The notes under the pieces are model-generated. The model searched no databases. It saw only the letters and a list, made by a program, of their open reading frames with translations, and was not told the origin of the DNA. A DNA stretch of 41,924 nucleotides from Bdellovibrio sp. (GTDB lineage Bacteria; Bdellovibrionota; Bacteriovoracia; Bacteriovoracales; Bacteriovoracaceae), in contig DYOQ01000022.1 in the NCBI GenBank assembly GCA_020720455.1, positions 1-41,924 of the forward strand, read 5' to 3'. Positions 7,049-23,214 of the stretch are shown piece after piece. Both the position numbers and the translations under genes were made by a program. Numbering within the stretch: position 1 is the stretch's first letter; every line of letters begins with the position of its first letter.

Positions 7049-7064
7049 TGGCACGTATCCTGCA
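7049..7064 (+). promoter_or_regulatory. Sigma-54 (-24/-12) promoter
   Basis: The sequence TGGCACGTATCCTGCA matches the sigma-54 consensus TGGCACG-N4-TTGCW at all but one defined base (C for T next to the -12 GC), with the GG and GC elements at the required spacing. Transcription would begin near 7075, giving a leader of about 60 bases for the gene at 7136. It lies in the 147-base gap after nadB, the expected place for a new transcription unit. Sigma-54 promoters need an enhancer-binding ATPase, and one is encoded at 1609-2928, although a link between them is only inference. Confidence 0.8.
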
Positions 7065-7135
7065 CTTATGTTTTGTATGAGGCCTAGGATGGGCCGATGT
7101 AATCAAGGAAGATTTTATAGTTAAGGAGCTTGGAT

Positions 7136-7489
7136 GTGACTATTGCGGGAATAAGAGGGATATTGGTAGTAATTGTCTTTATGACATTGCTTGTATCAGG
7201 TGAGATCCGCGGGGTAACAGTAGATGGGCAGTGTCCCGATCTATTAATAGGGGAAGTTACTTCAGTAGACAACGTTCAAGCTCCTTATGCTTTAGCTAGC
7301 GTTCAATTAGAAAAAGTTAAAGTTAGTTTTTTGCTAAAGCAGATTGTCGAAAGTACAAATTTTCAAAATGGAATTGAAAATTTTGAAATAACAATTTTGA
7401 AAAATGGGCCACAAGAGTTTGTTGTTGGAAAAACATACATGGTTGGCCTTAACGGCAAATGGTTTTGTAGTGCTAGCAAGATAGAGTAG
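7136..7489 (+). CDS. Small secreted protein of unknown function
   Basis: A 117-residue exported protein. The hydrophobic N-terminus (GILVVIVFMTLLVSG) is a signal peptide or membrane anchor. The mature part carries one Cys near its start and one near its end, and looks like a small beta-rich domain. Three start candidates lie close together: TTG 7130, out-of-frame ATG 7134 and GTG 7136. The strong site AAGGAG at 7123-7128 is seven bases from GTG 7136, so that start was chosen. The ATG at 7134 is immediately followed by TGA, making a start-stop pair that overlaps the real start. It is the first gene downstream of the sigma-54 promoter. Confidence 0.72.
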   Translation: MTIAGIRGILVVIVFMTLLVSGEIRGVTVDGQCPDLLIGEVTSVDNVQAPYALASVQLEKVKVSFLLKQIVESTNFQNGIENFEITILKNGPQEFVVGKTYMVGLNGKWFCSASKIE

Positions 7490-7493
7490 TTTT

Positions 7494-7518
7494 TTTGCAA
7501 CTCAGGACGAGTTGTAAG
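7494..7518 (+). promoter_or_regulatory. Intergenic hairpin between two operon genes
   Basis: CAACTC (7498-7503) and GAGTTG (7509-7514) form a perfect stem around the loop AGGAC, extendable with wobble pairs to about ten pairs. It lies in the 48-base gap between the small secreted protein gene and the metalloprotease gene. A T-run precedes the stem but none follows it on either strand, so it is not a standard terminator. It may mark an RNA processing or stability site. Confidence 0.45.
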
Positions 7519-7537
7519 CTGTGTCTATGGAGAGACG

Positions 7538-8326
7538 ATGGATTTACTTCGCATTTTATTTCTGGTTTTTTTTACATTAATAGCATTTAGAGCGAAAAGT
7601 TATGAAGTGACGATAGACTTTAAAGAAGGTATGTACTGGACGATACTCCCAATTAAAATGTATCGGTATGTGCTAGATTCATCAATGGCAGAAGATTTGA
7701 AAAATGCAACGGAAGTATCAGAAGATGATTGGGAGAGTAACGTCGGTCAAGATCTCTGGGAGTTTGTAGGCGATGTAGGAGTTAGAAGTGGCGGGATGTT
7801 GGTTAATAATATTAGATGGTCAGATAATTTCGGTAATGAAACAGGATATGATCCAAGTACAACCCTAGCGATTACAATCAGGTTTAATAATGGTTCAATC
7901 TTTACGAAGACCGAGGTTATCTTAAATGGTAATCATAATAATTTAAGAAATAATATAGGTGGCATGTTGTTAAATACAGTGATGCATGAGCTTGGACACA
8001 CTATTGGTCTTGATCATACTAATCAGTATGCGATTATGGCCCCGTATTCAAATGATTTAAGAGCTCTCCAATATGACGATATCGAGGGTGGGAAATATGT
8101 TTACAAGGTAAATGCAAGCAGACAGTCAAGTGGGTATAGTGAGTACCTCTCGAATAAAAAAAGGGGTGGAATAGATCAAATAGGAGCGTGTGGTAGTATC
8201 GATATTACTAGTGGAGGAGATGAATCAAACGTAAGCTTTATGAGTTCACTATTTTTAGGATTACTTGCTACTTTTGGTTGGTTATTGTTTACGGCAAGTT
8301 TTTCCAAGCGAAAGTTGACCACTTAG
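7538..8326 (+). CDS. Exported matrixin-type metalloprotease with C-terminal membrane anchor
   Basis: A 262-residue zinc protease. It has an N-terminal signal peptide (residues 1-20), a domain with the complete metzincin zinc site HELGHTIGLDH at 150-160 (His150, His154, His160, catalytic Glu151), and a Met-turn at AIMAP (Met167). The site and Met-turn spacing fit the matrixin (M10) group. No N-terminal cysteine-switch propeptide is visible. After the domain comes a Ser/Gly-rich linker with a lone Cys218 in GACGS, a hydrophobic helix at about 234-254 and a basic tail (SKRK). That arrangement resembles bacterial C-terminal sorting tails. It should act outside the cytoplasm on proteins. A GGAGAGACG stretch precedes the ATG. 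It is the second gene of the sigma-54 unit. Confidence 0.9.
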   Translation: MDLLRILFLVFFTLIAFRAKSYEVTIDFKEGMYWTILPIKMYRYVLDSSMAEDLKNATEVSEDDWESNVGQDLWEFVGDVGVRSGGMLVNNIRWSDNFGNETGYDPSTTLAITIRFNNGSIFTKTEVILNGNHNNLRNNIGGMLLNTVMHELGHTIGLDHTNQYAIMAPYSNDLRALQYDDIEGGKYVYKVNASRQSSGYSEYLSNKKRGGIDQIGACGSIDITSGGDESNVSFMSSLFLGLLATFGWLLFTASFSKRKLTT

Positions 8327-8337
8327 TGTTATAGATC

Positions 8338-8383
8338 TTCGTGTCGATAAATAGCCTAGAGGTGGACAATGTTTATCGACGAA
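8338..8383 (+). promoter_or_regulatory. Hairpin enclosing a ribosome binding site and start codon
   Basis: GTCGATAAA (8343-8351) is a perfect inverted repeat of TTTATCGAC (8372-8380). Beyond a two-base bulge the pairing continues with TTC (8338-8340) and GAA (8381-8383), for 12 pairs in all. The 20-base loop contains the ribosome binding site AGAGGTGG and the ATG (8369-8371) of the next gene. Such a fold would keep initiation in a closed loop and could limit or regulate translation of that gene relative to the protease gene before it. Confidence 0.6.
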
Positions 8384-8842
8384 CCTAGTTCAAAATATAT
8401 ATTCTTCTTAAATCTTGAAGAGAAACTTCCAAAATATTTTTTTGAGTTATCTGCTAAATTTTCTTCTAGAAATGTATCGCTGGTTCCAATAAGTATAAAA
8501 GAGTTACAGCGAATTCCAACAGCTCCAAACGTATCTGTTTTAACCGTCACTCGTAGTTTTAGTTCGTTGCAAACATTCCAGTCAATAAGGCGTGTTTTTT
8601 TAGATGTAGCTATTCAGAATAAAAAATATCTTTTTTTCCATCTGACATCATTTAGCGTTAACGATTTAGATTTTGCGAATGCTAGAAGGTGGGGTTATTA
8701 TTATAACTATAAACTACCTGTGAATATGGATAATTTAGCAAGCGATTTATCAGATATATTGTGTGTACGCTGGGATAAAACTAATAAGTGGCCAGGTGGA
8801 ACAAGAGTTCCGCTTGATAAAACTGTCACCTCTGGTGTTTAG
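8369..8842 (+). CDS. Hypothetical protein (157 aa), third gene of the sigma-54 unit
   Basis: A 157-residue cytoplasmic-looking protein with no signal peptide and no recognised motif. The first half is rich in aromatic and basic residues (KYIFFLNLEEKL, KYLFFHL), and the second half contains RRWGYYYNYKLP and an Asp/Leu segment. The hydrophobic pattern in residues 35-100 (VSLVPISI, VSVLTVTR, YLFFHLTSF) suggests an alternating beta-alpha fold, and the start is reminiscent of a small receiver-like or signalling domain, but no defining residues are present. The ribosome binding site AGAGGTGG lies inside a hairpin loop. It belongs to the same run of genes as the metalloprotease and may share its regulation. 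Confidence 0.65.
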   Translation: MFIDEPSSKYIFFLNLEEKLPKYFFELSAKFSSRNVSLVPISIKELQRIPTAPNVSVLTVTRSFSSLQTFQSIRRVFLDVAIQNKKYLFFHLTSFSVNDLDFANARRWGYYYNYKLPVNMDNLASDLSDILCVRWDKTNKWPGGTRVPLDKTVTSGV

Positions 8843-8865
8843 ACTGTTTTGCAGCTGAGGGTTAA

Positions 8866-9297
8866 ATGAGTAGTGAAGATGTCCAAAGAAAATATGCGGT
8901 GTTAGTCCAAATTAAGCTGGATGCAACTAGATTATTTGATAGGATTTCTAAGCGTAGATCAGAATATGTATCCATCTTTGCGGTTAAAAGAACACGTGAT
9001 CATTTTAAACAGATCTTTGCAAATAGGTATAGTAGTGTTGGTATATCAGAGCTAAAAGATTGCTCAGATAAAACAATTTCTGCAATTGATGCTTTTTATA
9101 ATAAAGTTGATGATCTGTGGTGGTATTTGCAACATACTGAGGATATGCCTGGTACAGTTGAAGATAGACTAATTAGAGAAATTAAAAATATCGGTCGCTT
9201 TTACGATGAGTTATTGTTATATCTGGATCAAGAATTAAAAGGAAATGATGATGAGAGCGAGATTCCACCGCTTGAGGGGATTATTAAAGAGAGTTAG
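8866..9297 (+). CDS. Hypothetical helical cytoplasmic protein (143 aa)
   Basis: A 143-residue protein with no signal peptide. It is rich in charged residues and Leu/Ile at helix spacing throughout, so it is probably all alpha-helical. A double Trp (DDLWWYLQHTED) sits near residue 85. The C-terminal 25 residues are acidic (DDESEIPPLEG) and look flexible. I do not recognise a family. The ribosome binding site GAGGG precedes the ATG. Its last 50 bases overlap the start of the methyltransferase gene in another frame, so the two are translationally coupled. Confidence 0.65.
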   Translation: MSSEDVQRKYAVLVQIKLDATRLFDRISKRRSEYVSIFAVKRTRDHFKQIFANRYSSVGISELKDCSDKTISAIDAFYNKVDDLWWYLQHTEDMPGTVEDRLIREIKNIGRFYDELLLYLDQELKGNDDESEIPPLEGIIKES

Positions 9298-9994
9298 AAA
9301 TTGGTGGAGTATTGTCCTAGTGTTTAGCGTTTTAATTTTTGCTCCGCTAATCCATGCTAAGCATAATATATCATCAAGTCGGTATGAACTTTTATCTGGG
9401 TCAAAACGGAATTCGCCAGATTCAAAAAAATTTTGGGATGGGCAATATAATTCTGAAAAATATATCTACGGCAAAGCTCCTGCAAAGTTTCTGGCTCAAA
9501 ATTATGATTTTATTCCTGGCCAAAGTAATGTTTTAGACGTTGGAATGGGTGAGGGTAGAAATGCAGTTTTTTTAGCAAGAAAAGGATATTTGGTAACAGG
9601 CGTTGATATTAGTTCAGTAGCAATTAGAAAAGCTGGTGTTTTAGCAAGAGAGTTTGGAGTTAGAATTAATACGGTGACAGCGTCAATTGATGATTATAAG
9701 GCCCATCCAGAGTCACTAGATGCAATAATCTGTTTTTATTATGTTGATCGAAGTATTAATAAGAAATTGATTTCATGGTTAAAACCTGGTGGGATATTAA
9801 TATATGAAGCCAATACAGATCTTCAGATGAATGTCAGAGATAACATTCAACAGAGTAAAAAATATCTGTTGCGTCCAGAGGAGTTGCTAAAAATGTTCCC
9901 AGGTCTTCAAATTTTAAAATATGAAGAACCACTGCATAAGAAGGATTTTACAGCGAGTATTATCTTACGAAAACCTAAAAAAAATAAAGTTTAA
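9248..9994 (+). CDS. Probable exported class I SAM-dependent methyltransferase
   Basis: About 248 residues. The catalytic part is a class I methyltransferase: a family lead-in FWDGQYNSEKYIYG at about residues 63-76, SAM-binding motif I LDVGMGEGRN at about 97-106, and acidic motif II GVDIS near 120. The style resembles TehB/thiol-type methyltransferases, and the substrate is unknown. Unusually, a very basic start (RARFHRLRGLLKRVR) is followed by a hydrophobic stretch (IVLVFSVLIFAPLI) and an Ala-x-Ala-like site, IHAK, as in a signal peptide or anchor. Three ATGs stand in a row at 9245-9253. AAAAGG at 9237-9242 best fits the second or third. It overlaps the previous gene by about 50 bases. Confidence 0.85.
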   Translation: MMRARFHRLRGLLKRVRNWWSIVLVFSVLIFAPLIHAKHNISSSRYELLSGSKRNSPDSKKFWDGQYNSEKYIYGKAPAKFLAQNYDFIPGQSNVLDVGMGEGRNAVFLARKGYLVTGVDISSVAIRKAGVLAREFGVRINTVTASIDDYKAHPESLDAIICFYYVDRSINKKLISWLKPGGILIYEANTDLQMNVRDNIQQSKKYLLRPEELLKMFPGLQILKYEEPLHKKDFTASIILRKPKKNKV

Positions 9995-9996
9995 AA

Positions 9997-10923
9997 ATGA
10001 AAATCAGTAATAGCTTATTTTATAGAAACGTGACGGCCTTAGATTTTGCTTATGTGGTTGCAGATTTAAGAGTGATTGGAAATTCACTCTATGTCGATGT
10101 GGAGTTTGCTGGAGATGAAGATGCCGATGGCGTTTTGTACGATTTTTCAAGCGCAAAACATCATGTAAAAAAACTAATTGATAAGCATATTGATCATAAG
10201 TTTATTGTTCCAGATAAGATGGTGACAAAATTAGAAAACGAAATGATAGAAGTTTTTGTTGGTGGTGTTTATTATAAGGCCCCTCGCGAAGCGTTCTGTT
10301 TGATTGATACTAGCATGAAACTGTCAATTTCTTATGATGATATTGAAAAACACGCGACAGAAATTATTTCAAAAGAGTTACCACTAAATGTTAAGAGTAT
10401 AAAGATACACCTTAGAGAAGAAGAAGGCAGCGGCCCCTTCTTTTGCTACACTCATGGGCTAAAAAACCATTATGGCAATTGTCAAAGGTTGCTTCATGGC
10501 CATCGTAATCAATTTGAGATATGGACTTCTGGGATTAGAAGAAGTGATCTGGAACATAGATTTGTTAAAAGTTTTTTTGGGGGAGATGTTCATTTTGTTT
10601 TCTGGGATAACGTTGTAAACAAAAAAGAAATTAGCTCTCTTTGTGATAATGAAATTCCAATAGGGAGAGTTTCTATCGGCGGAAAAACAGTACTGACTTA
10701 TATAAGTTCACAAGGTACATTTCATTTGAAAATACCGACATCACAATGTTATTTTGTAAAAACTGAAACGACAATCGAAAATTTATCTAGATCTTTCGTA
10801 GATCACTGTGTGAAAGAGTTTAAGCTTATTGGTGATCTTTCAAGTGGTGATATTGAGGTTAGAGCGTACGAAGGTATTGGAAAAGGTTCTTGTGCAATTT
10901 GGTCGGGTAAGTGCAAATATTGA
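9997..10923 (+). CDS. Two-part 6-pyruvoyl-tetrahydropterin synthase / QueD-like protein
   Basis: A 308-residue member of the T-fold pterin enzyme family. These enzymes act on dihydroneopterin triphosphate, for example to make 6-carboxytetrahydropterin for queuosine. The protein is about twice the size of QueD. The N-terminal half has the strand and helix pattern with YDFSSAKHHVKK and the family motif IDHKFIVP (about 65-72). The C-terminal half carries the zinc and catalytic residues: His153 in THGLKNH, Cys162 as nucleophile candidate and His167/His169 in the HGH motif. Larger homologues of this kind exist as poorly characterised PTPS proteins. Its start follows the methyltransferase stop by two bases, without a strong ribosome binding site, so coupled translation is likely. 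It closes the sigma-54 unit. Confidence 0.82.
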   Translation: MKISNSLFYRNVTALDFAYVVADLRVIGNSLYVDVEFAGDEDADGVLYDFSSAKHHVKKLIDKHIDHKFIVPDKMVTKLENEMIEVFVGGVYYKAPREAFCLIDTSMKLSISYDDIEKHATEIISKELPLNVKSIKIHLREEEGSGPFFCYTHGLKNHYGNCQRLLHGHRNQFEIWTSGIRRSDLEHRFVKSFFGGDVHFVFWDNVVNKKEISSLCDNEIPIGRVSIGGKTVLTYISSQGTFHLKIPTSQCYFVKTETTIENLSRSFVDHCVKEFKLIGDLSSGDIEVRAYEGIGKGSCAIWSGKCKY

Positions 10924-10943: not shown

Positions 10944-10977
10944 TTGTTATCATTTTTAAAAATCATATAATGTTAAT
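10944..10977 (+). promoter_or_regulatory. Promoter with no leader before the gene at 10978
   Basis: A perfect -10 box TATAAT lies at 10966-10971, with TTGTTA (10944-10949) as a partial -35 at 16-base spacing. Transcription would start about seven bases after the -10, at or next to the A of the ATG at 10978. No Shine-Dalgarno-like sequence is present in the 25 bases before the ATG. Together these suggest a leaderless mRNA. A further TTGACA at 10920-10925 could serve a second, upstream promoter. Confidence 0.5.
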
Positions 10978-11712
10978 ATGGATGAAGTTAAGGATAAGTG
11001 GCTTTTGAGTTGCGTGCTAGTAATTTTACTGGGCCTCTCTTTCGTCTTAAAGGCGAGTACAAAAGACGAGCTAGATCCTAGGGTGGGCCTCAAAGATGAG
11101 GATGGAATTTTTTCAGGTAGAGTTTCAAAGATAAATGAGAGCGCATCGCTTCTGCGAGTTAAGGTTGAGTTTGAAAATTTTAAATATTTGAACAAGAATG
11201 ATCGCGTAGATTTTTGGACAGATACATCACCAGCTTTTAAATGTCGTGGCCTAGTAGTTGGTAAAAGTCCTGAGTACTTGTTAATGAAAGTTCCTGATTA
11301 TGTTCACTGTAAGAAATTTGTTCAGATGAGTTACGGAAGCTATCTGAAATTCTTTAGTCAAGATTTCCTTGATAATATTAAAAAGGGTAAATCGTTAGTT
11401 GGAGTATTGCTGAAAAAACAGATGGCACTTTCAAGCAAGGAGAGAAGATATAAGCAAGATCTGGATAAGTACATTGAGAGGGTTGGAGGATTAAGTCAAC
11501 GCTACCAGATATTAAGAGATAAGTTAGAGCAAGAGTGGAAAGATGAATTATCAAAAGTTGAACAAGATAAGACTGAGTTGTTGGTTGAGTATAATGAAGT
11601 TAGAAAAAAGCTAGATGATGTTAATCACAAGCTTGAACAGTATAAGGTTGCTGATGATAATTTAGAGATGGATCGGTGGTCGCTTGATCCTAAGTTGTAT
11701 TTTAAAAAATAA
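10978..11712 (+). CDS. Membrane-anchored coiled-coil protein of unknown function
   Basis: A 244-residue protein. A short charged start is followed by one hydrophobic helix (about residues 9-24, LLSCVLVILLGLSFVL), which should anchor it in the inner membrane with the rest in the periplasm. Residues 40-130 form a compact domain with two cysteines (FKCRG and VHCKK), possibly beta-rich. Residues 145-225 are a long Lys/Glu/Leu-rich coiled coil. It ends WSLDPKLYFKK. I do not recognise the family. The flagellar or cell-division style of membrane anchor plus coiled coil suggests a structural role, but that is only a guess. The missing ribosome binding site and the adjacent TATAAT make a leaderless transcript likely. 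Confidence 0.7.
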   Translation: MDEVKDKWLLSCVLVILLGLSFVLKASTKDELDPRVGLKDEDGIFSGRVSKINESASLLRVKVEFENFKYLNKNDRVDFWTDTSPAFKCRGLVVGKSPEYLLMKVPDYVHCKKFVQMSYGSYLKFFSQDFLDNIKKGKSLVGVLLKKQMALSSKERRYKQDLDKYIERVGGLSQRYQILRDKLEQEWKDELSKVEQDKTELLVEYNEVRKKLDDVNHKLEQYKVADDNLEMDRWSLDPKLYFKK

Positions 11713-11745: not shown

Positions 11746-12780
11746 ATGACAGCGTATTTTGCAAGAAGATTGTTACTGATTGTTCCTACTTTTATTGGAA
11801 TAACACTAATGGTGTTTACAATTACCAGAATGGTTCCAGGAGGGCCACTTGAGCGGATGATGTCGAAAATGCAACAAATGGATCAAAGTTCAAATGTTGG
11901 AAAATCTACTAATAATAATTCAAACAAATCCTCCGCCCTATCAGAAGATCAGCAGGAGCAGTTGAAAATTTATTATGGGCTTGATAGGCCAATTTATATC
12001 TCATATTTTATCTGGCTTAAAAAAGTTGTTACATTTGATCTTGGAACTTCTACTAGATACAACGAGCCAGTTTGGGAGATTATTAAGAGCAAGTTTCACG
12101 TTTCGTTAACGTATGGACTTCTTGTCCTTGTGATCTCATACCTTGTTTCAATTCCTATGGGGATATATAAAGCATTAAAGCATTCAAGTATTTTTGATAA
12201 TATCTCTTCGGCATTTATTTTTATTGGTTATTCAATTCCTAACTACGTTATAGGGATCGGGTTAATTGTTATATTCGCGGCAAACTTGGATCTCTTTCCA
12301 ATGGGTGGGTTTGCTAGCGAAAATTTCAGTGATCTTACGATGTTTGAAAAGTTTGCGGATATCGTATGGCATGCATTTTTGCCGGTAACCTCATATCTTG
12401 CTGCCTCTTTTGCAGGTATGACTTTTTTAATGAAAAACACCATGATGGATAATTTATCTGCTGATTATGTTAGGACAGCTATGGCAAAAGGTTTGTCATT
12501 TAGAAAAGCAGTGGTGGGCCATGCATTAAGAAATAGTTTGATTCCGATTGCAACTTCATTTGGGAATAGCATCTCTGTTTTAGTTATGGGCTCATTCCTA
12601 GTTGAAACTGTTTTTAATATCGATGGTTTTGGTTTACTTGGGTATGAGTCAGTAGTGGAAAGAGATTATCCAGTGGTACTTGGTGTGCTAGTGATCAGCT
12701 CACTTCTTTTTTTAATTGGAAATATTCTTTCAGATATTTGTGTAGCACTTGTCGACCCTCGGGTCCAATTTTCCGAGTAG
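11746..12780 (+). CDS. yejB: Peptide ABC transporter permease, YejB type
   Basis: A 344-residue inner-membrane permease of an oligopeptide importer. It resembles YejB from start to end: an N-terminal helix with RRLLLIVPTF and the family motif MVPGGPLE (about 29-36), then about five further membrane segments, the EAA loop near AKGLSFRKAVVGHALRN, and the C-terminal signature GFGLLGYE...RDYPVVLG and LVDPRV. Between residues 46 and 64 is an Asn/Ser-rich insertion at the place where YejB also carries a loop. It begins a five-gene transporter operon (B, E, binding protein, two ATPases). GAAGGG is the ribosome binding site. In enterobacteria the Yej system imports peptides and microcin C. Confidence 0.93.
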   Translation: MTAYFARRLLLIVPTFIGITLMVFTITRMVPGGPLERMMSKMQQMDQSSNVGKSTNNNSNKSSALSEDQQEQLKIYYGLDRPIYISYFIWLKKVVTFDLGTSTRYNEPVWEIIKSKFHVSLTYGLLVLVISYLVSIPMGIYKALKHSSIFDNISSAFIFIGYSIPNYVIGIGLIVIFAANLDLFPMGGFASENFSDLTMFEKFADIVWHAFLPVTSYLAASFAGMTFLMKNTMMDNLSADYVRTAMAKGLSFRKAVVGHALRNSLIPIATSFGNSISVLVMGSFLVETVFNIDGFGLLGYESVVERDYPVVLGVLVISSLLFLIGNILSDICVALVDPRVQFSE

Positions 12781-12788
12781 GTTTATCA

Positions 12789-13841
12789 ATGATTAAATTT
12801 AAAATTAATCCACTAACGCAAAAAAAAATAAAACGGTTTAGAACTATTAAGAGGGGTTATTATTCTTTCTTACTTTTATCTTTAATATTAGGATTAAGTT
12901 TGTTTGGTGAACTCATGGTAAATAGTCGCGCCTTGATTGTTAGTTATAATGGTAAGCTCTATTTTCCAACATACGGTGCAATTATTACTGGTAAGACTTT
13001 TGGGCTTGAATACGGTTATGAGACAAATTATCGTGAGTTAAGAGATAAGTTTAAATCAAGTAGTAGTAGTGACTGGTTAGTTATGCCAATTGTCCCTTGG
13101 AATCCGTATGAGAATGATTTAAAAGAAGGGGCGTTTCCGCCGCTTCCACCTGATTCTTCAGTGGGACATTTCTTGGGGACCGATACAACTGGTAGAGATA
13201 TTTTAGCGAGATTATTCTATGGTTTTAGAATAGCGATTCTATTTTCTTTTTTGTTGGTCGCAGTCAATTATTCAGTTGGAATATCAATAGGCTCAGCAAT
13301 GGGATACATTGGTGGAAAGTTTGATCTGTTTTTTCAACGGCTAATCGAGATTTGGTCCAATGTTCCTTTTTTGTACATAATAATTATTATCTCTTCAATA
13401 ATTACTCCTAGCTTTTTTTCTTTGATTTTTATCATGTTAATGTTTGGTTGGATGTTTATGACATGGCAACTTAGAACATCAACCTATAAAGAAAAAGCAA
13501 GAGAGTATGTTTTAGCAGCTAAAAGCCTTGGTGCTAGCGATGCTAGAATAATTTTTAAACATATAATTCCAAATACAATATCGGTGATTGTAACGTTTGT
13601 ACCTTTCTCTGTAGCTTCAGGTATTGCAGCTCTTACCTCGTTAGACTATTTGGGCTTTGGCCTTCCTGCACCGACACCAAGTTGGGGAGAGTTATTAAAG
13701 CAAGGGACTGCTAACTTAAATGCACCGTGGATTGTTTCTTCTGTTGTTGTGTCGATGATACTAGTTTTAATGATGATTACGTTTATAGGAGAAGCTGTAA
13801 GAGAGGCATTTGATCCTAAAAAATATACTACATATGAATAG
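12789..13841 (+). CDS. yejE: Peptide ABC transporter permease, YejE type
   Basis: A 350-residue second permease of the same importer. The N-terminus (RTIKRGYYSFLLL...GLSLFGELM), the periplasmic segment with PPLPPDSSVGHFLGTD and DTTGRDILAR, and the C-terminal LDYLGFGLP...GELLKQG and GEAVREAFDPKK all follow YejE. The cytoplasmic EAA loop that docks the ATPase is visible at AAKSLGASDARIIFKHIIPN. A GTG at 12738 would overlap yejB by 43 bases, but AGG at 12779-12781 is seven bases from the ATG at 12789, which also gives the family-like N-terminus. The ribosome binding site overlaps the yejB stop, indicating coupled translation. Confidence 0.93.
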   Translation: MIKFKINPLTQKKIKRFRTIKRGYYSFLLLSLILGLSLFGELMVNSRALIVSYNGKLYFPTYGAIITGKTFGLEYGYETNYRELRDKFKSSSSSDWLVMPIVPWNPYENDLKEGAFPPLPPDSSVGHFLGTDTTGRDILARLFYGFRIAILFSFLLVAVNYSVGISIGSAMGYIGGKFDLFFQRLIEIWSNVPFLYIIIIISSIITPSFFSLIFIMLMFGWMFMTWQLRTSTYKEKAREYVLAAKSLGASDARIIFKHIIPNTISVIVTFVPFSVASGIAALTSLDYLGFGLPAPTPSWGELLKQGTANLNAPWIVSSVVVSMILVLMMITFIGEAVREAFDPKKYTTYE

Positions 13842-13853
13842 TTGGAGAGTGTT

Positions 13854-15728
13854 ATGAGATTAATGTTATTTCTGTGTTTTTTGTTATTAGTTGGTGGGTG
13901 TTCTAAAGAAGTAGTTAAGAGTGATCTGGATAAAAAGATTGCGGCATATGTGAGTGTGCCGATTCCCATTGGTGATGTGAAAGATTTGGATGGTTTAAAA
14001 TGGGAGACTAATAATAACGATCCTGTGTTTTCCGATTCTGCTGCCAAAAAAGGAGGAAAAATAAATATTAATATGAGTTCATTTCCTCTTACTCTTAGGT
14101 ATGTCGGCCCAGATTCTAATGATGGGTTTAGATCATATATCGATGGTAATAAAATGGGGCTTCTGGGAATTCAGCCTGTAACCAATAATTTTATTCCAGC
14201 ATTAGCGACAGCGTGGGCGCTTGGAAAAAATTTTAATTCGGTATTTTTTAAGTTAGATAAAGACGCCAAATGGTCTGATGGAAAGCCTATTACCGCTGAT
14301 GACTATGTTTTTGCATTGGAGTTTATGTTGTCAAAACATATTATCGCTCCTTGGTATAATAACTATGCAGAAGAGTTTTTTGAAAAAGTTGTTAAGTATG
14401 ATGATTTTACGATAGGAATTTTTACTAAGAAGAAACATTCTAAATATGAAATGTTGCTTAACTACGGTGCTGGTTATGTACCAGAACCGAAACATTTTTT
14501 CTTGCCAGGGTTAGATAAAGATTGGGTTGTAAACTATCAGTGGAAAGTTGCACCAAATACAGGAGCATATAATATCTCAGAAGTTAAAAAGGGGAAGAGT
14601 GTACAGTTTAAGAGAAATGATAATTGGTGGGCAAAAGAGAAGCTTTACTATAAAAATAGATTCAATGTGGATGTTGTTGAGATTAAAGTTGAAAGAGATG
14701 ATTCTGTAGCTTGGCAAAAATTTTTAAAGGGTGAACTAGATCTCTTCTACTTAAATATCCCTGAGTACTGGCATGTTAAATCAGACATTAAGAGCGTTGA
14801 ACCTTTTGCTAAAGGTTACATCAATAAGCTTTGGTTTTATACCAATGCTCCTCAACCAAACTATGGAATTTTTCTTAATCTTGATTATGAACTATTTAAA
14901 GATATAAACGTTAGGAAAGCATTCGGACACGCGATGAATGTTGATAAAGTGATAAAGACAGTTTTGCGAGGGGATTATGATAGGCAGTATACGAGTCAAG
15001 ATGGTAGAAATGAGTATACAAATTTAAAAATTATCCCTAGAGAGTTCTCGCTTGCAAAAGTTGATGAGTACATGAAGCTTGCTGGATGGGATAAGCGCGG
15101 AGATGATGGAATAAGAGTTAAAGATGGCAAGAGAATGGAAGTTGTTATGACATCTGGATATGCACACCATCAGGATAGAATGGTAATTATTATGGAAGAG
15201 GCCAAAAAAGCTGGGATTGAGATTAAGCTTAACTTGATGGATGGATCAACCGCATTCAAGTCAATGTTAGAAAAACAGCATCAAATTGCTTGGACAGCGT
15301 GGACTGGCGGAATTCTTCCAGACTATTGGCAGTTTTATCATTCAGATAATGCTCATAAAAAACAAAATAATAATTTCACCAATACTGATGATAAGGAGAT
15401 GGATAAGTTAATAGATGATATGCGTAACGAGTTTGACGATAAGAAAAAACAGGAGTTAAGTAGAAAAATTTTGCAAAGAGAGTTTGACCTAGCTGTCTAC
15501 GTTCCAACTTTTTCTGTTCCCTTTTCAAGAAAGGGCCACTGGCGTTGGATTCAACTACCTAAAGAGCGTGGAGTAAATGATAAGGATGGGCCGATCTTAG
15601 ACCCGTTCGTAATGGGAAGGTTTTGGATTGATGAAAATGTAAAAGCTGAAACGTTGCAGGGAATGAAAGATGGCAAGAACTTTCCACCAGTAGAGATAAT
15701 AGATACAACTTATAAAAGGAAAAACTAG
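13854..15728 (+). CDS. yejA: Periplasmic peptide-binding lipoprotein of the Yej-type importer
   Basis: A family-5 extracellular solute-binding protein of 624 residues, close to the length of YejA. The signal peptide ends in a clear lipobox (LVGG-Cys, Cys16), so it is lipid-anchored rather than free in the periplasm as in E. coli. Family features include the segment KWSDGKPITADDYVFALEFM near residue 145, YNISEVKKGKSVQFKRND, and FLNLDYELFKDINVRKAFGHAMN. The TTG at 13842 is in frame, but GGAG (13844-13847) is spaced for the ATG at 13854. The gene sits between permease and ATPase genes in one operon. It should capture oligopeptides and hand them to YejB/YejE. Confidence 0.92.
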   Translation: MRLMLFLCFLLLVGGCSKEVVKSDLDKKIAAYVSVPIPIGDVKDLDGLKWETNNNDPVFSDSAAKKGGKININMSSFPLTLRYVGPDSNDGFRSYIDGNKMGLLGIQPVTNNFIPALATAWALGKNFNSVFFKLDKDAKWSDGKPITADDYVFALEFMLSKHIIAPWYNNYAEEFFEKVVKYDDFTIGIFTKKKHSKYEMLLNYGAGYVPEPKHFFLPGLDKDWVVNYQWKVAPNTGAYNISEVKKGKSVQFKRNDNWWAKEKLYYKNRFNVDVVEIKVERDDSVAWQKFLKGELDLFYLNIPEYWHVKSDIKSVEPFAKGYINKLWFYTNAPQPNYGIFLNLDYELFKDINVRKAFGHAMNVDKVIKTVLRGDYDRQYTSQDGRNEYTNLKIIPREFSLAKVDEYMKLAGWDKRGDDGIRVKDGKRMEVVMTSGYAHHQDRMVIIMEEAKKAGIEIKLNLMDGSTAFKSMLEKQHQIAWTAWTGGILPDYWQFYHSDNAHKKQNNNFTNTDDKEMDKLIDDMRNEFDDKKKQELSRKILQREFDLAVYVPTFSVPFSRKGHWRWIQLPKERGVNDKDGPILDPFVMGRFWIDENVKAETLQGMKDGKNFPPVEIIDTTYKRKN

Positions 15729-15732
15729 TTTT

Positions 15733-16725
15733 ATGGAGAAGATATTAGAGGTTAAAAATCTTTCTACTGCTTTTGCTACTGATTCTGATTTGATTACCGT
15801 CTTAGATGGAGTTAGTTTTGATTTAATAAAAGGTAAGACGCTTGGAATTGTTGGTGAGTCTGGATGTGGGAAGTCGGTTACTTCACTTTCAATTATGAGA
15901 CTTCTTCCGCGTCCTGCTGGACGAATTACTGGTGGAGAGGTTTTATACAGGGGCACAGACCTGACAAAGATCTCATTAGGTGAGATGCATAAAATTAGAG
16001 GGAATAAAATTGCGATGATTTTTCAGGAGCCAATGACAGCGTTAAATCCTGTGCAAAAAATTGGAGACCAGCTCGGGGAGTCTTTTAGGTTACATTTTCC
16101 AAACATGAATGATGATGAGGTTCGGGCGCAGTCACTCAACATGTTAGAGTCCGTTGGAATTTCTGATATTAGAAGAAGATTGCGAGAATATCCTCACCAG
16201 CTTTCAGGTGGTATTCGTCAAAGAGTAATGATTGCGATAGCACTTGCGTGTAAACCTGATATTTTAATTGCCGATGAGCCGACCACTGCACTTGATGTTA
16301 CCATTCAAGCCCAGATTTTAAAATTAATAAAAGATTTGCAAAAAGAGAATGGAATGTCGGTGATGTTTATCACTCATGATTTAGGAGTAATTGCAGAAAT
16401 TTGCGACGATGTTGTTGTTATGTACACTGGCCATGTTGTAGAAAAAGGAAGTGTGAATGATATTTTTGAAAATCCAAAACATCCATATACAAAGGGGTTG
16501 TTAGAGTCTATTCCGAGATTAGAGCATCCAAGAAAAACAAAACTTAAAATTATTGAAGGGATGGTTCCTGATCTTCTTAACCTCCCAAGTGGGTGTAGAT
16601 TTGGGAATAGATGTCCTTATATAGTTGATGAGTGCAAACAAAAAGTACCTGTGCTTGAAAAAGTGTTGGATGCACATTATTCAAAATGTCTCAAACATGC
16701 GAGTTTCATGAAGGAAAATGTATGA
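15733..16725 (+). CDS. oppD: Oligopeptide ABC transporter ATP-binding protein (OppD/YejF N-half type)
   Basis: A 330-residue ATPase for the peptide importer. Walker A is GESGCGKS (41-48), the Q-loop is IFQEPMTALNP (about 96-106), the ABC signature is LSGGIRQR (157-164) and Walker B is ILIADEP (177-183), followed by the switch histidine in FITHDLGV. The C-terminal extension has the Cys-rich OppD motif (CRFGNRCPY...DEC...C) that in related DppD proteins holds an iron-sulphur cluster. In E. coli the Yej system uses one fused ATPase, YejF, whereas here two separate genes encode the halves. It overlaps the next gene by four bases (ATGA). Confidence 0.94.
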   Translation: MEKILEVKNLSTAFATDSDLITVLDGVSFDLIKGKTLGIVGESGCGKSVTSLSIMRLLPRPAGRITGGEVLYRGTDLTKISLGEMHKIRGNKIAMIFQEPMTALNPVQKIGDQLGESFRLHFPNMNDDEVRAQSLNMLESVGISDIRRRLREYPHQLSGGIRQRVMIAIALACKPDILIADEPTTALDVTIQAQILKLIKDLQKENGMSVMFITHDLGVIAEICDDVVVMYTGHVVEKGSVNDIFENPKHPYTKGLLESIPRLEHPRKTKLKIIEGMVPDLLNLPSGCRFGNRCPYIVDECKQKVPVLEKVLDAHYSKCLKHASFMKENV

Positions 16726-17699
16726 AAGAGTATATTTTAGAAGTAGATAATTTGACCAAACATTTTCCGATAAATGGTGGAGTTTTACTTAGAAAGGTTG
16801 GGGATGTTCATGCACTGAATGGTGTTACATTTAAAGTTAAGAAGGGCGAGACTCTAGGAGTTGTCGGTGAGAGTGGCTGTGGCAAGAGTACGCTTGGAAA
16901 AACCTTACTTAGGCTACATCGGCCTACTAGTGGTAGTGCGAAATTTCTAAGTAAGGATCTTTTTTCTATTGAAGGAAAAGAGTTAAGAGAGATGAGAAAA
17001 GATATCCAAATGATTTTTCAAGACCCGTATGAGTCACTTAACGCAAGACACTCGGTAAGGTCGATTTTGCATGAGCCATTTGAAATTCACAAAATTGGAG
17101 ATTATGAGTTTAGAGAGTCTGAAGCAAAAAGACTTTTAAATAGAGTCGGGTTACCTCCTTCAGCATTAGATAGATTTTCCTTTGAGTTTTCGGGAGGACA
17201 AAGACAGCGGATCGGTATTGCTCGTGCTATTGCTCTAAATCCAAAGCTGGTCGTGTGTGATGAACCTGTTTCGGCATTAGATGTTTCTGTTCAATCCCAA
17301 GTCTTAAACTTGATGCTTGAGTTACAACAAGAGATGGATCTAACATATATTTTTATAGCGCACGATTTAGCGGTTGTTAGACATATTAGCGATAATATAG
17401 CTGTTATGTATCTTGGAAATATTGTTGAATATACCGATGCTGACACTATTTATGAAAAACCAAGACATCCTTATACAAAAGCTCTGATTTCAGCAATACC
17501 TGTTCCTGATCCTCGGTTCAAAGGAGTTAAGCAAGTATTAGAAGGTGATATTCCAAGCCCAAGAAGATTGCCAACGGGTTGTCACTTTCATACGAGATGT
17601 CCTATTGCTACTGATAAGTGTAGAAAAGAATCTCCGATTTTAAGAGATGCCACTGGTACTTCAGAACAAACGCATTTGGTATCATGTCACTATATATAG
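16722..17699 (+). CDS. oppF: Oligopeptide ABC transporter ATP-binding protein (OppF/YejF C-half type)
   Basis: A 325-residue second ATPase of the importer. Walker A is GESGCGKS (49-56), the Q-loop is IFQDPYESLN, the signature is FSGGQRQR, and Walker B LVVCDEPVSALD is typical of OppF. The switch histidine is in FIAHDLAV. The C-terminal Cys motif (CHFHTRCP...DKC...C) is complete. An upstream in-frame ATG exists at 16686, but AAGGA (16711-16715) is spaced for the ATG at 16722, which overlaps the oppD stop as ATGA. The product should pair with OppD to energise YejB/YejE. The stop at 17699 is close to the next gene start. Confidence 0.94.
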   Translation: MKEYILEVDNLTKHFPINGGVLLRKVGDVHALNGVTFKVKKGETLGVVGESGCGKSTLGKTLLRLHRPTSGSAKFLSKDLFSIEGKELREMRKDIQMIFQDPYESLNARHSVRSILHEPFEIHKIGDYEFRESEAKRLLNRVGLPPSALDRFSFEFSGGQRQRIGIARAIALNPKLVVCDEPVSALDVSVQSQVLNLMLELQQEMDLTYIFIAHDLAVVRHISDNIAVMYLGNIVEYTDADTIYEKPRHPYTKALISAIPVPDPRFKGVKQVLEGDIPSPRRLPTGCHFHTRCPIATDKCRKESPILRDATGTSEQTHLVSCHYI

Positions 17700-18888: not shown

Positions 18889-19566
18889 ATGAGAATAAAA
18901 ATGAGAATTATATTTTGTTTTCTATTGATGAGTTCATTTATAAATATCGTTTTGGCCGAATCTTCTAAGAAAGATAAATACGCACAAGTTGTGTTGCTTA
19001 CAGGAGAAGGAACGTCAGAAAAAAACAAATTAAAGTTACATGATTGGATAGATAGAAAAGCGATACTGTCAACTGGGCCAGCTTCATATCTAAAAATCTA
19101 TATCCCATCAGAGTTTGTAACGATACTTCTTGGCCCTTATACAAAAGTTATATTTGGTGGATATAGTTCTGGAATGTCAAATTATGTATCTACTCACACT
19201 GTTGAAAATGGAATGTGTCGAGTCGTTGCTTCGAATAAACGTGGTGGGCGAGTACCGTTCTTATCTATTGAAGGGGTGTCAGCAACAGTAGGCCTTGCTG
19301 TTGGTGATATAATATTTACGACAACAAAAGCTTTTAATGAATCTGAACTTATTGTTATGAGTAAAGATGCAACTTTCAATGCAAAAGTAGGGAGCGAAGA
19401 GGATAGAGTTGGAGTCGTAGTTAAGCAAGGTGAGTGGTTAGGTATTGGGGGTAGGTTTGGAGAAAAGATTAGAGATAAAATGAAACTCTCTATTCAGTTA
19501 TACTCTCATTATAACTATTTTGGAGAATTAGCTAGCTCGAATCCTTCTAGTTTAAATCTAAAATAA
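18889..19566 (+). CDS. Exported FecR-domain protein
   Basis: A 225-residue exported protein. The signal peptide (IIFCFLLMSSFINIVLA) ends near residue 25. The mature part has a FecR-type small beta domain: WIDRKAILSTGPASYLKIYIPSEFVTILLGPYTKVIF (residues about 49-85), followed by further strands (TVENGMCRVVAS, FLSIEGVSATVG). Free-standing periplasmic FecR-domain proteins are common and usually of unknown role, unlike the sigma-regulator FecR with its N-terminal cytoplasmic part. AGGAG at 18879-18883 overlaps the stop of the previous gene, so it belongs to that transcript. Its last 52 bases overlap the 3' end of the convergent tonB gene. Confidence 0.75.
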   Translation: MRIKMRIIFCFLLMSSFINIVLAESSKKDKYAQVVLLTGEGTSEKNKLKLHDWIDRKAILSTGPASYLKIYIPSEFVTILLGPYTKVIFGGYSSGMSNYVSTHTVENGMCRVVASNKRGGRVPFLSIEGVSATVGLAVGDIIFTTTKAFNESELIVMSKDATFNAKVGSEEDRVGVVVKQGEWLGIGGRFGEKIRDKMKLSIQLYSHYNYFGELASSNPSSLNLK

Positions 19567-20081
19567 AAAATTAGTTTGTTCGATGGAGTGGGATCTGTTT
19601 TGTGATTTTTCTTGAACGCATTTTTTATAGCATCTATAGCTGCATCATCAAGTCGTTTAAACCCTGATGATTTTATCACAACCGTCTGAATGAGCTCGTT
19701 GTTACTGTTTATGGTTACTTCAATCCTGTTTTCTCCCTCTTCTTTAAGTATCCTAGAGAGTTTGGGATAGTTAGGGTTGATTGTAATTGAGTTATTACCG
19801 CCTAGTGTAGCAGTAGGCGTAGACTCTTTTTTTTTGTTTTCGGTAATGTTTTTTGAATCTTGTTTTTTATGAGTTAGTGCTGGTTGAGTTTTGGATAGTT
19901 GTTTTGCCGTTGTACGAGAATGAGAATAAGAATGAGAATGAGAATGAAGAAAGGTTACAAATTTATGGTTGGTTATTGTATTTGTATTTGTATTTGTATT
20001 ATTGCTACTATGTGATGATAATTGGATCGCAACTACGAGATGAATAAGTATTGATAAAAAGATTGCAAGTGGATGGATCAT
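19515..20081 (-). CDS. tonB: TonB-family energy transducer, co-transcribed with btuB
   Basis: A 188-residue TonB-like protein. It has one N-terminal membrane helix (HPLAIFLSILIHLVVAIQL), a low-complexity periplasmic linker and a C-terminal TonB domain (about residues 105-180) with YPKLSRILKEEGENRIEVTI and LDDAAIDAIKNAF. The linker has unusual Asn-Thr (NTNTNTNT) and His-Ser (HSHSHSYSHS) runs, encoded by tandem hexamers, instead of the usual Pro-rich segment. TonB transmits inner-membrane proton energy to outer-membrane receptors. The gene overlaps btuB by four bases (ATGA), so it is expected to serve that receptor. ExbB/ExbD are not in the window. Confidence 0.88.
   Translation of the reverse strand: MIHPLAIFLSILIHLVVAIQLSSHSSNNTNTNTNTITNHKFVTFLHSHSHSYSHSRTTAKQLSKTQPALTHKKQDSKNITENKKKESTPTATLGGNNSITINPNYPKLSRILKEEGENRIEVTINSNNELIQTVVIKSSGFKRLDDAAIDAIKNAFKKNHKTDPTPSNKLIFYFRFKLEGFELANSPK
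19916..19945. repeat. Tandem hexamer repeat (GAGAAT x5, one imperfect)
   Basis: Five consecutive six-base units on the plus strand, four GAGAAT and one AAGAAT, lie inside tonB. On the coding strand they give the His-Ser repeats of the linker. Because the unit is two codons, gain or loss of copies would change linker length without breaking the frame. Confidence 0.9.
19978..20001. repeat. Second tandem hexamer repeat (GTATTT x3, plus partial)
   Basis: Three perfect GTATTT units with a fourth imperfect one, also inside tonB. On the coding strand they encode the Asn-Thr run. Two unrelated hexamer tracts within 90 bases of one linker point to replication slippage as the source of linker length. 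Confidence 0.88.
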
Positions 20082-21913
20082 AAATCAATCTTTATTCCTG
20101 AAAAAAGAGAGATGCCGATAGCGCCTTGTTCTTTGTAAATGGCCACTTTCTTATTCGTAATATTATAAATATCAAAAAAATATTGTGTGCTATTTTGTTT
20201 GTAGCTTGTACCGAGATCGATTTTTGTGTTGCTGCCTAGTTTTTCACCTGTTGGATAATCTGAAGACATTTGAGCGCTAGTTGTCTTTACGTTGCACCAA
20301 AATGTTAGTTTTTTTAAACTATAATCAACTCCAAGTTTGCCAGTATGTAACGGACGAAGTGGAAGCCCTTGATGAGTTGTTAAGTTTTTACAGTCATTTA
20401 AACTATAACTAATATTTAAGTGGAGATTATTATTTAGGTGTAACTGCTGTGAAAATTCACCACCTCTTATTTTAACTTTGCTATTGTTGTAATACTTTTG
20501 AGCCGATAAGTTATACTCAATCATATTTGCTAAAAGAGTTTGATAGATTGTTATCTTACTTGTTTTTGAACTAATAGAGAATGCTAACGACTGAGATGAC
20601 TCTTCTCTAAGCGTTGGTTCACCATACTGAGAGTATAGTTGAATGAGTGAGGGGTATTTGTATCCAGTAGCGTACTCTGCTGTTGCATCTAGTTTATCAT
20701 CAAATAAATGTTTTGTGACTTTAGTATTAATTGGATACTTGATTTCTTTAGAGGTAAGGTTGTAACTTCCTCTCGTTCCTATTGATATGTTAGTTTTATT
20801 AAACTCCTTATTTGCAATCATATAAGCATAACTGTTAGATAGATTGTTTCTTGTCATTGAATACGAATCAGTTTTACCCTCTTCGACTAAGTGGCCAACT
20901 CCAGAGTCTATGTTCAAAAAATTTGGCAGGGTTGCCTCTAGCTGTGCTTTAACTTCATTTTTATTTGCGTGAAAAAAATTACTGCTAATATTTTCTAACT
21001 CGTTATCAGCTTCATCAACATATGAACGCTTAATCGTTGAGTGTGAAAAGCTGAGCTTTGTTTTTGTATCACCATCATTAAAGTAGCTAGTTAAGGTTTG
21101 ACCGATTAGATATTTTTCATTAGTAGAGATGCTGTTGTCATCATCTTTGTAAAAATCATCTAGTTCATATCTATTTTTACTGTATCTAGTTGTTAAGGTT
21201 AAGTTTGAACTATCTCCAATACTCTTGGATAATGTATCGCTAATAGCATATTGTTTATATCCGTCTGTTTCACCACCTCTAAAAAGTGAAGTGCCATCAC
21301 TACTACTGTGATTAAGCGATATTTTATTTTTGATATCCAAAAATGGATTAGAATTGTTGCTTATGTTTGCAAATACTGAATTGAAACTTCCGTATCCTGC
21401 TGTTGTTTCAGTTTTTTTAGAAAAGTTTTCGCTAATTGTCGATATGTCAATGACCCCCCCCGTCGCTTGAGGCCCGTGTTTTACGTTGTTTGGCCCATGG
21501 ATGACGTCTATTTTTTCTACTCCACTACTATTAAAAAATGAAAAATCATATCGTCTATTTCCTGGGTCCATGGGGTCGTTTAGTTCCACTCCGTCGTATA
21601 AGACTAGAACATATCCAGCAGGGTTTCCCCTTAAGAAGATACTGCTGTTTTTACTATGTATTGAATCACTCTCAGTTTCAACCCCTGGAAGCGTGCTAAG
21701 TGTTTTACTAATATTTTGCCCGTGTGGTTCATTAAGCTTCTCTGCACTAATTTTTGTTTCAATAGTTTTTTTGGGTGATTCAATATTTTTTGCAATAACC
21801 TCTATTACGTTATCTTCAGTGTGGCCAAGTGAATAGAATAAGAGTGAATAGAATAAGATCGTAAAAATAATGAGTAAAACTAATGAAATATTTAACGATT
21901 TGCCATTGTTCAC
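20078..21913 (-). CDS. btuB: TonB-dependent vitamin B12 receptor (BtuB-like)
   Basis: A 611-residue outer-membrane receptor. The N-terminal hydrophobic export segment is followed by a TonB-box-like stretch (DNVIEVIAK). The plug domain then shows ISKTLSTLPGVET, IFLRGNPAGYVLVLYDGVELNDP and VEKIDVIHGPNNVKHGPQA. The rest is a beta-barrel with Tyr/Asn/Ser-rich strands, ending in GIKIDL rather than an aromatic residue. The GTG start at 21913 is preceded by a strong GGGAGGA site. The cobalamin riboswitch immediately upstream identifies the substrate as cobalamin or a corrinoid. tonB is downstream and btuFCD is divergent. The size and plug match BtuB-type receptors. Confidence 0.93.
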   Translation of the reverse strand: MNNGKSLNISLVLLIIFTILFYSLLFYSLGHTEDNVIEVIAKNIESPKKTIETKISAEKLNEPHGQNISKTLSTLPGVETESDSIHSKNSSIFLRGNPAGYVLVLYDGVELNDPMDPGNRRYDFSFFNSSGVEKIDVIHGPNNVKHGPQATGGVIDISTISENFSKKTETTAGYGSFNSVFANISNNSNPFLDIKNKISLNHSSSDGTSLFRGGETDGYKQYAISDTLSKSIGDSSNLTLTTRYSKNRYELDDFYKDDDNSISTNEKYLIGQTLTSYFNDGDTKTKLSFSHSTIKRSYVDEADNELENISSNFFHANKNEVKAQLEATLPNFLNIDSGVGHLVEEGKTDSYSMTRNNLSNSYAYMIANKEFNKTNISIGTRGSYNLTSKEIKYPINTKVTKHLFDDKLDATAEYATGYKYPSLIQLYSQYGEPTLREESSQSLAFSISSKTSKITIYQTLLANMIEYNLSAQKYYNNSKVKIRGGEFSQQLHLNNNLHLNISYSLNDCKNLTTHQGLPLRPLHTGKLGVDYSLKKLTFWCNVKTTSAQMSSDYPTGEKLGSNTKIDLGTSYKQNSTQYFFDIYNITNKKVAIYKEQGAIGISLFSGIKIDL

Positions 21914-21939
21914 GACTTCCTCCCCCTCGAAGGTTTTAA

Positions 21940-22020
21940 CGTCAAAGTTTTCCGCATCAGGTTTTCGGGCTATTATACCGTTGCGGGGCAGTCCTGATTA
22001 TTACAGTGTTCCCCTGATTG
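21940..22020 (-). promoter_or_regulatory. Cobalamin riboswitch controlling btuB-tonB
   Basis: Read on the minus strand, the region contains the conserved cobalamin aptamer core CCCCGCAACGGTA (21976-21988), preceded by a GGGGAACAC...CAGGACTG stretch and followed by AGCCCGAAAACCTGATGC, the B12-box-like end. ATCAGG (22018-22013) can pair with CCTGAT (21961-21956) to close the aptamer. No stem followed by a T-run lies between it and the GTG at 21913, while the Shine-Dalgarno GGAGG is close by, so control of translation initiation is more likely than termination. High B12 should lower receptor and TonB production. Confidence 0.93.
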
Positions 22021-22030
22021 CAGATTGGTG

Positions 22031-22059
22031 ATACTACTGTTTGATATAGTAAAAGTCAA
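22031..22059 (-). promoter_or_regulatory. Sigma-70-type promoter for the btuB riboswitch transcript
   Basis: On the minus strand, TTGACT (22059-22054) and TAGTAT (22036-22031) are separated by exactly 17 bases. Transcription would start near 22024, just upstream of the riboswitch aptamer, as expected for a leader that must include the whole aptamer. The match is 5/6 at -35 and 4/6 at -10. Confidence 0.6.
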
Positions 22060-22119
22060 AATTTGAGTGTTGCCATGTAGATTTAAACCTAGTAGCTTGC
22101 TCGAAAAGATGGATATGCG

Positions 22120-23214
22120 ATGAGAAGTAAAGTTATTAACCCAATGCTCTTTTGTTTTTTGCTGATTTCAACTTGGCAAATTGCTCTTTCGAACGAAGGG
22201 TACATAAAATATGCTAAGTTGCTCCAAATTGAAAAAAGAGACAAAACATTTCTAGTAAGAATCAAATCAAGTTTTGAAAGTAAAGCTTGGAATAGTTATA
22301 CACTAACAGCAGGATCTAAAAGAATAGTGGCGTTATCAGCAACACATGTCGCTTCACTGGATGAGATAGATGCTCTAGATAGCTTAGTCGGTGTTGAATC
22401 AATACGGTATATATCGAATGAAAAGGTTAAAAAGTTATATAGCGAAAAAAAAATAGTTGAGATCGGTTACCCAATCAATGTTGAGAAAATTGTCCGGATT
22501 AAGCCAGACGTAGTTTTTACTTATGATGTCTCTGGTGAGAATCAAATTTCAATTGCTAGGTTGAATAATCAGATAATTATGACGATACCGCTTACTGAAT
22601 ATCTAGAGAGTACACCACTAGGAAGAGCGGAGTGGATCAAGTTAATTGGAATTGTTACAGGTAAAGAGAGAGAGGCTTTTGCGGCATTTGAGAAAATAGA
22701 AAAAAAATACCTAGAACTTTCATTGATGGTAAAAAAAAGTTCTGAGTTGCCACGAATTGTTGGAGTTGGAGATGGAAGTGGTGATTATTGGACTGCCCCA
22801 TCAGCAGATAGTAATTTTGTTCAAATGATAAGAGATGCAGGTGGCTCATACTTGTGGAGTGAAAATAGTTTCAATCGGCCAATTTCAGTGAGTAAAGAGT
22901 CTGCGTTTGTCAAAATGAAGAGCGTAGATTTTTGGCTAGTGAACAATAGATGGAATTCACTTGATGAGTTAATTGCAGATGATAAACGATATGAAACTAT
23001 TTTGACAGCTATTGGTGATAATGTTTATAACAACAATTTAGACGGTGATAATGAGAGCGGGGGATACAATTTTTGGGAGCGAGCATTTGTTCGGCCAGAT
23101 ATATTACTCGAAGAACTAATTGCAATTTTCCATCCGAAACTTATCAAACATAAGTTTGTGTGGTATCATAAGTTATTATTAAATAGTGTATCTGTAAAAA
23201 CTGGAGCTAGGTAG
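22120..23214 (+). CDS. btuF: Vitamin B12 ABC transporter substrate-binding protein (BtuF-like)
   Basis: A 364-residue periplasmic binding protein of the BtuF/FecB helical-hinge class. A signal peptide (NPMLFCFLLISTWQIALS) is cleaved near residue 24. The binding-protein pattern follows: SKRIVALSATHVASLDEIDALD, EIGYPINVEKIVRIKPDVVFTYD and a long inter-lobe helix (REAFAAFEKIEKKYLEL). The C-terminal lobe ends ELIAIFHPKL, the usual end of the family. It is divergent from btuB and directly precedes btuC and btuD, so cobalamin is the likely ligand. The ribosome binding site is weak. No riboswitch is seen on this strand, so only the receptor side appears B12-controlled. Confidence 0.9.
   Translation: MRSKVINPMLFCFLLISTWQIALSNEGYIKYAKLLQIEKRDKTFLVRIKSSFESKAWNSYTLTAGSKRIVALSATHVASLDEIDALDSLVGVESIRYISNEKVKKLYSEKKIVEIGYPINVEKIVRIKPDVVFTYDVSGENQISIARLNNQIIMTIPLTEYLESTPLGRAEWIKLIGIVTGKEREAFAAFEKIEKKYLELSLMVKKSSELPRIVGVGDGSGDYWTAPSADSNFVQMIRDAGGSYLWSENSFNRPISVSKESAFVKMKSVDFWLVNNRWNSLDELIADDKRYETILTAIGDNVYNNNLDGDNESGGYNFWERAFVRPDILLEELIAIFHPKLIKHKFVWYHKLLLNSVSVKTGAR

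Follow-up and report, generated by a model that had tools for sequence, protein, structure and literature searches.

We analyzed a 41,924-nucleotide (nt) stretch of Bdellovibrio sp. DNA (family Bacteriovoracaceae; contig DYOQ01000022.1 of assembly GCA_020720455.1), here called the window and corresponding to contig C8 in a genome of 2.7 Mb, and looked into a gene cluster that opens with a sigma-54 promoter. The cluster is real and conserved, and its makeup across 36 genera of the Bacteriovoracales suggests three modules, each with its own promoter-like element as judged from the DNA: a protease head (sec and mtx), a middle module (u1, u2, mt, and an optional ptps), and a module in which the coiled-coil gene cc is followed by an oligopeptide importer (oppBCADF, 11746-17699); all gene names are working names. 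Tentatively, and at less than even confidence for the mechanism as a whole, we read this as a surface protease and its regulatory partner sitting in front of an older envelope/peptide-uptake locus. A preliminary description of the window had placed six tight genes, sec to ptps, behind a near-consensus sigma-54 promoter, and both the promoter and the genes are where it put them, with intergenic gaps of 48, 42, 23, -53, and 2 nt. Its matrixin and two-part 6-pyruvoyl-tetrahydropterin synthase (PTPS)-like identities were also borne out (Pfam M10, 31.7 bits versus a cut-off of 24; PF01242, 48.7 bits versus 22.4, in two stretches); together with the methyltransferase, these are the Pfam families above cut-off among the six genes, and sec, u1, and u2 matched none. 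The run had been thought to end at position 10923; in fact the conserved cc and then the opp genes continue it.

The sigma-54 element, TGGCACGTATCCTGCA, lies 71 nt upstream of the sec start codon (GTG at 7136) and has GG at -24 and GC at -12 at the fixed spacing, near the consensus TGGCAC-N5-TTGC. The pattern YTGGCACN6TGCW occurs at 8 sites in the 2.7-Mb genome versus 0 for the reversed-pattern control. Across related loci, the first gene had the motif upstream of it in 49/55 loci headed by sec and in 2/14 headed by u1, versus 6/959 other genes. Counted by genus, with one genome per genus, it was found in 14/17 genera with a sec or mtx head versus 1/19 without one (P value = 3 × 10−6, uncorrected for kinship). 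These distributions indicate that the site is tied to the protease head and not to the whole run; they do not support the common switch previously proposed for protease, methyltransferase, and PTPS. The genome encodes RpoN and several enhancer-binding proteins, one of which, an NtrC-type response regulator with a sigma-54 activation domain (1609-2928), 4 kb upstream of the site, is a possible candidate activator. Several other sigma-54-like sites in the same genome (L132-L142) precede small secreted proteins or lipoproteins.

Two further kinds of conserved element lie within the cluster. A sigma-28 (FliA)-like pattern (TAAAGTTT, GCCGATAA), scored at a threshold of at least 11/16 matches, preceded 68% of inner u1 genes and 43% of first u1 genes, versus 0-1.5% of other operon genes, ~1-2% of shuffles, and 11% of unrelated genes; FliA is encoded in the genome. 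In 59/79 loci, an NATAAT box was found 9-16 nt upstream of cc, versus 5/404 unrelated genes; most of these boxes start 12-13 nt before the start codon, usually in the form TGGCATAAT. From the usual promoter geometry, we infer that the transcript would start at the cc start codon or close to it. The elements of the locus are putative promoters, and readthrough from the sigma-54 promoter may reach downstream. Three promoter-like element types on the module borders would explain how a protease head could be gained or lost before an older uptake locus.

The elements before u1 and cc led us to reject a single operon as the sole architecture. The preliminary description had suggested one sigma-54 operon that perhaps makes or processes a modified peptide or cofactor; in such a scheme, the protease would process, the methyltransferase would tailor, and PTPS would perform a pterin step. 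We consider that reading very improbable, and a shared pterin/peptide biosynthesis unlikely. The tight spacing of the six genes speaks for it, as does the reuse of the slot between mt and cc, which holds PTPS of two types in 14/36 genera (9 tandem, 5 single-domain). Against it, beyond the separate elements, 22/36 genera yielded no PTPS at the locus, a second, canonical PTPS is encoded elsewhere in the same genome (C46), and no precursor peptide was recognized. The methyltransferase fits it no better. Among 67 mt matches, one is a contig-cut fragment (L109), and all 66 full-length copies have a hydrophobic signal-type N terminus, which, with the signal peptides of sec and mtx, upholds the earlier claim that several products are exported. 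The S-adenosylmethionine (SAM) motif I of mt is intact in 52/66 copies and lost or degraded in 14/66, some loci have no mt, and mt underwent at least 7 state changes on the cc tree. Likewise, in 20/36 genera no mtx was found at the locus, while the remaining genes persist.

As for PTPS itself, no short single-domain form (~150 amino acids [aa]) turned up in genomes carrying the tandem type (PF01242 matches, by eye), and this apparent mutual exclusion suggests an exchange of equivalent enzymes and not an operon-specific role. Its optional presence and its two types led us to reject PTPS as a defining member of the locus; we rejected mere noise as well, since PTPS recurs in the same mt/cc slot, whose state changed 3 times on the cc tree. 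A phmmer search of the tandem PTPS against the PDB gave no match.

Named relatives of the window genes came from Bacteriovoracales-type metagenome-assembled genomes and strains (for example, Bacteriovoracaceae, Halobacteriovorax, and Bacteriovorax). Conservation of gene order in related genomes had been named earlier as a check, and the order sec-mtx-u1-u2-mt-(ptps)-cc-oppABC was kept in many genera, with an identical gene order in 79 species-level loci. Among the 36 genera, the locus contains cc in 36, u1 in 32, u2 in 32, mt in 30, oppA in 26, mtx in 16, and sec in 13, some of these counts being lower bounds because contig ends truncate loci and because mtx lies on another contig or in another place in G024 and G029. 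Within the order, the most constant member, cc, was present in 123/129 genomes and in 47/48 genera; most of its genomes also carry a distant second cc paralogue elsewhere (E ~1e-17 to 1e-24).

This pattern bears on the possibility that the modules are three independent transcription units without a joint function, kept as neighbors near groESL by inheritance. The separate promoter-like elements and the independent loss of modules are what such neighbors would show, and groES- and groEL-like genes (~95 aa, and ~550 aa with a GroEL-type sequence) precede the locus in many relatives. However, deeply diverged genera share the order, as does the window, where nadB precedes the cluster, and u1, u2, and cc remain together at ~26-50% protein identity. 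We regard mere adjacency as unlikely.

The two genes of the protease head travel together. They agree in presence or absence in 65/66 loci, sec directly adjoins mtx in 69/73 sec-bearing genomes (counted by eye from coordinates), and in G029 the pair is found together away from the rest of the locus. Each gene underwent ~6 state changes on the cc tree; kinship-aware linkage of sec with mtx, and of the sigma-54 site with mtx, cannot reach significance because there are only 3 independent pairs, which agree. An alignment of 14 sec sequences showed a signal peptide and two invariant cysteines, the first of which lies ~6-9 residues past the signal peptide end (by eye), and no lipobox (by eye). The AlphaFold model of sec has a predicted local distance difference test (pLDDT) score of 83, and NTR- and TIMP-type structures recurred among its top Foldseek matches (PCOLCE NTR, TIMP-2, meteorin NTR, C3/C4/C5, and agrin NtA).

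The mtx product is a matrixin: it has HExxHxxGxxH and a Met-turn in the matrixin domain, its PDB matches are matrix metalloproteinase (MMP) catalytic domains, and HExGHxxGLxH was present in 51/55 relatives. We saw no cysteine-switch propeptide motif before the catalytic domain (by eye). In its C-terminal tail, C218 was invariant in 15 sequences, and CG[ST] was found in 51/55 relatives. A separate family of exported OB-like proteins is encoded directly upstream of other matrixins across the phylum (L153-L155, L157, L159, L160, L162, and L163), one member having a weak Pfam NTR match (E 0.044). Pairing of matrixins with exported OB-like partners may be a general pattern; an hhalign comparison of sec with this family was not significant. 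Two matrixin reading frames (L116 and L155) appear broken, possibly through assembly errors.

In the second module, u1 has a predicted (beta-alpha)5 receiver-like fold (best Foldseek match XynC REC, E 6.8e-5) and lacks both the acidic pair and the conserved acceptor Asp of response-regulator receivers. The fold alone is no proof of signaling, because CENP-M scores almost equally; a search of u1 against PDB sequences gave nothing useful. No signal peptide was seen in u2. An always-exported methyltransferase fold is notable, since SAM would not be expected beyond the cytoplasm. Module 2 would provide, probably from a sigma-28-type promoter, a receiver-fold protein that lacks the usual acceptor Asp, u2, and the exported mt, with PTPS sometimes lodged behind mt.

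The third module would be expressed from the -10 promoter beside the cc start codon and would comprise cc and a YejB/YejE-type oligopeptide importer. Neither Pfam nor the PDB sequence search placed cc in a known family. Yej-type importers are described as carrying peptides and muropeptides (PMC9790009, PMC10128002), and this opens the main rival to a feeding role: modules 2 and 3 would serve envelope or peptidoglycan upkeep, recycling muropeptides or signaling the envelope state through the importer, and the protease head would be a lineage-specific regulator of an envelope protein and not a feeding tool. The YejB/E-type permeases, the persistence of modules 2 and 3 without the protease, the recycling of muropeptides by YejBEF-YepA in Agrobacterium (PMC9790009), and the alteration of the cell wall by the Listeria Mtz-Tim pair (PMC8235301) argue for it. 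However, the solute-binding protein more closely resembles oligopeptide/nickel types, and no murein enzyme was recognized in the cluster. We judge this alternative somewhat unlikely, while giving it real weight. Further along the window (19515-24946) are genes for a TonB-type protein and a TonB-dependent receptor, together with a periplasmic-binding/permease/ATPase set that looks like a siderophore or B12 uptake system; in some relatives (L040 and L043), a gene resembling its binding protein directly follows cc.

According to the surface-protease reading that we favor, a sigma-54 signal would switch on module 1, and sec and mtx would be produced. Without a cysteine-switch propeptide, mtx would be anchored in the envelope, or else directed to the cell surface, through its cysteine-transmembrane-basic tail, and sec would act on it as an inhibitor, a cofactor, or a cleaved partner. 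The protease would then cut envelope or prey proteins under the control of this partner, and the importer would take in the peptides released.

Several results weigh against this. The Foldseek support for the sec fold is weak (best E 0.015, template modeling score ~0.49), and a DUF2500 structure ranks equally high; by sequence, sec had no Pfam match to NTR/TIMP, and its one weak PDB match was to an unrelated protein. It also lacks the N-terminal Cys1 and, with its two invariant cysteines, the six-cysteine pattern of TIMPs. One genus (g34) has sec without mtx, and four genomes (G003, G028, G108, and G137) have mtx without sec. Moreover, protease and importer are not obligately coupled, because the ABC genes occur in protease-free genera. 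A stronger version, in which a sigma-54-controlled, surface-anchored TIMP-MMP-like pair and a true SAM methyltransferase acting beyond the cytoplasm (on substrates such as prey or envelope material) form one locus that digests prey and imports its peptides, strikes us as improbable.

Table 1. Features of the cluster in the window
Feature	Position	Strand	Basis
Sigma-54 (-24/-12) promoter TGGCACGTATCCTGCA	7049..7064	+	Sole exact window match; conserved before head
sec, small secreted protein, NTR/TIMP-like predicted fold	7136..7489	+	Alignment, AlphaFold, Foldseek
mtx, matrixin-type metalloprotease with signal peptide and Cys-transmembrane-basic tail	7538..8326	+	Pfam M10
Zinc motif HELGHTIGLDH of mtx	7985..8017	+	Ligand residues invariant in alignment
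mtx C-terminal tail: invariant Cys (CGSI), hydrophobic stretch, basic end	8189..8323	+	Alignment
Sigma-28 (FliA)-like element TAGTGTTA...GTCGATAA before u1	8324..8350	+	12/16 matches
u1, receiver-fold protein, C-terminal WPGGRRAKLP-type motif	8369..8842	+	AlphaFold pLDDT 81, Foldseek
u2, conserved helical protein	8866..9297	+	Syntenic in 32/36 genera
mt, class I SAM methyltransferase-type, N-terminal signal/anchor	9245..9994	+	Methyltransf_25, 54.5 bits
ptps, tandem PTPS-family protein, optional	9997..10923	+	PF01242, two stretches
Sigma-70-type promoter-like element of cc, TTGTTA-16-TATAAT	10944..10971	+	12 nt before ATG
cc, exported coiled-coil protein	10978..11712	+	Most constant locus member
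oppB, YejB-type oligopeptide ABC permease	11746..12780	+	NCBIfam YejB, 270.6 bits, below cut-off 445
oppC, YejE-type permease	12789..13841	+	NCBIfam microcin C permease, 284.6 bits, below cut-off 439
oppA, oligopeptide/nickel-type solute-binding protein	13842..15728	+	NCBIfam; beside cc in 26/36 genera
oppD, ATPase	15733..16725	+	NCBIfam
oppF, ATPase	16722..17699	+	NCBIfam

Our literature search for a Bacteriovorax sigma-54/matrixin operon returned no paper describing the locus, in keeping with the novelty claimed for it earlier. It offers a protease with a putatively TIMP-like partner in Gram-negative bacteria and, for a family with predators among its members, a locus that spans the lineage and can be tested.

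Parts of the locus resemble known systems. The ptps product is like QueD/6-pyruvoyl-tetrahydropterin synthase in its PF01242 matches and in a C-terminal half that keeps a CxxxxHGH-type stretch, but it is a tandem 300-aa form and scored 39.7 bits with TIGR03367 versus a cut-off of 89.25. The permeases are closest to YejB and YejE of YejABEF and YejBEF-YepA; unlike those systems, the importer of the window scores below the curated cut-offs (Table 1), its ATPase is split into two OppD/OppF or DppF-type genes, and its solute-binding protein is of the oligopeptide/nickel type. The mtx tail, with its cysteine-containing motif, transmembrane stretch, and basic end, recalls the substrates of myxosortase (MYXO-CTERM; PMC11980579), but no MYXO-CTERM model matched it, and NCBIfam MXAN_2677/2678 gave 23 bits versus a cut-off of 250.

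For the protease head, the predicted NTR-like fold of sec and the MMP-like zinc domain of mtx are reminiscent of animal TIMP/NTR proteins and MMPs, from which sec differs in its cysteines and its lack of a Pfam match and mtx in that no cysteine-switch propeptide was seen. By analogy, the nearest precedent is the Mtz-Tim pair of Listeria and other Gram-positive bacteria, in which the metzincin cuts its TIMP-like partner (PMC8235301). In that pair, the partner is a lipoprotein whose gene follows that of the protease, with a CI/Cro switch in control, whereas sec has no lipobox by eye, precedes the protease, and stands behind a sigma-54 site, and mtx has a C-terminal anchor-type tail. The likeness of the partners would be one of fold, not sequence, and for sec it carries the uncertainty of its Foldseek match. 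In both loci, the gene for an exported metzincin adjoins that for an exported partner.

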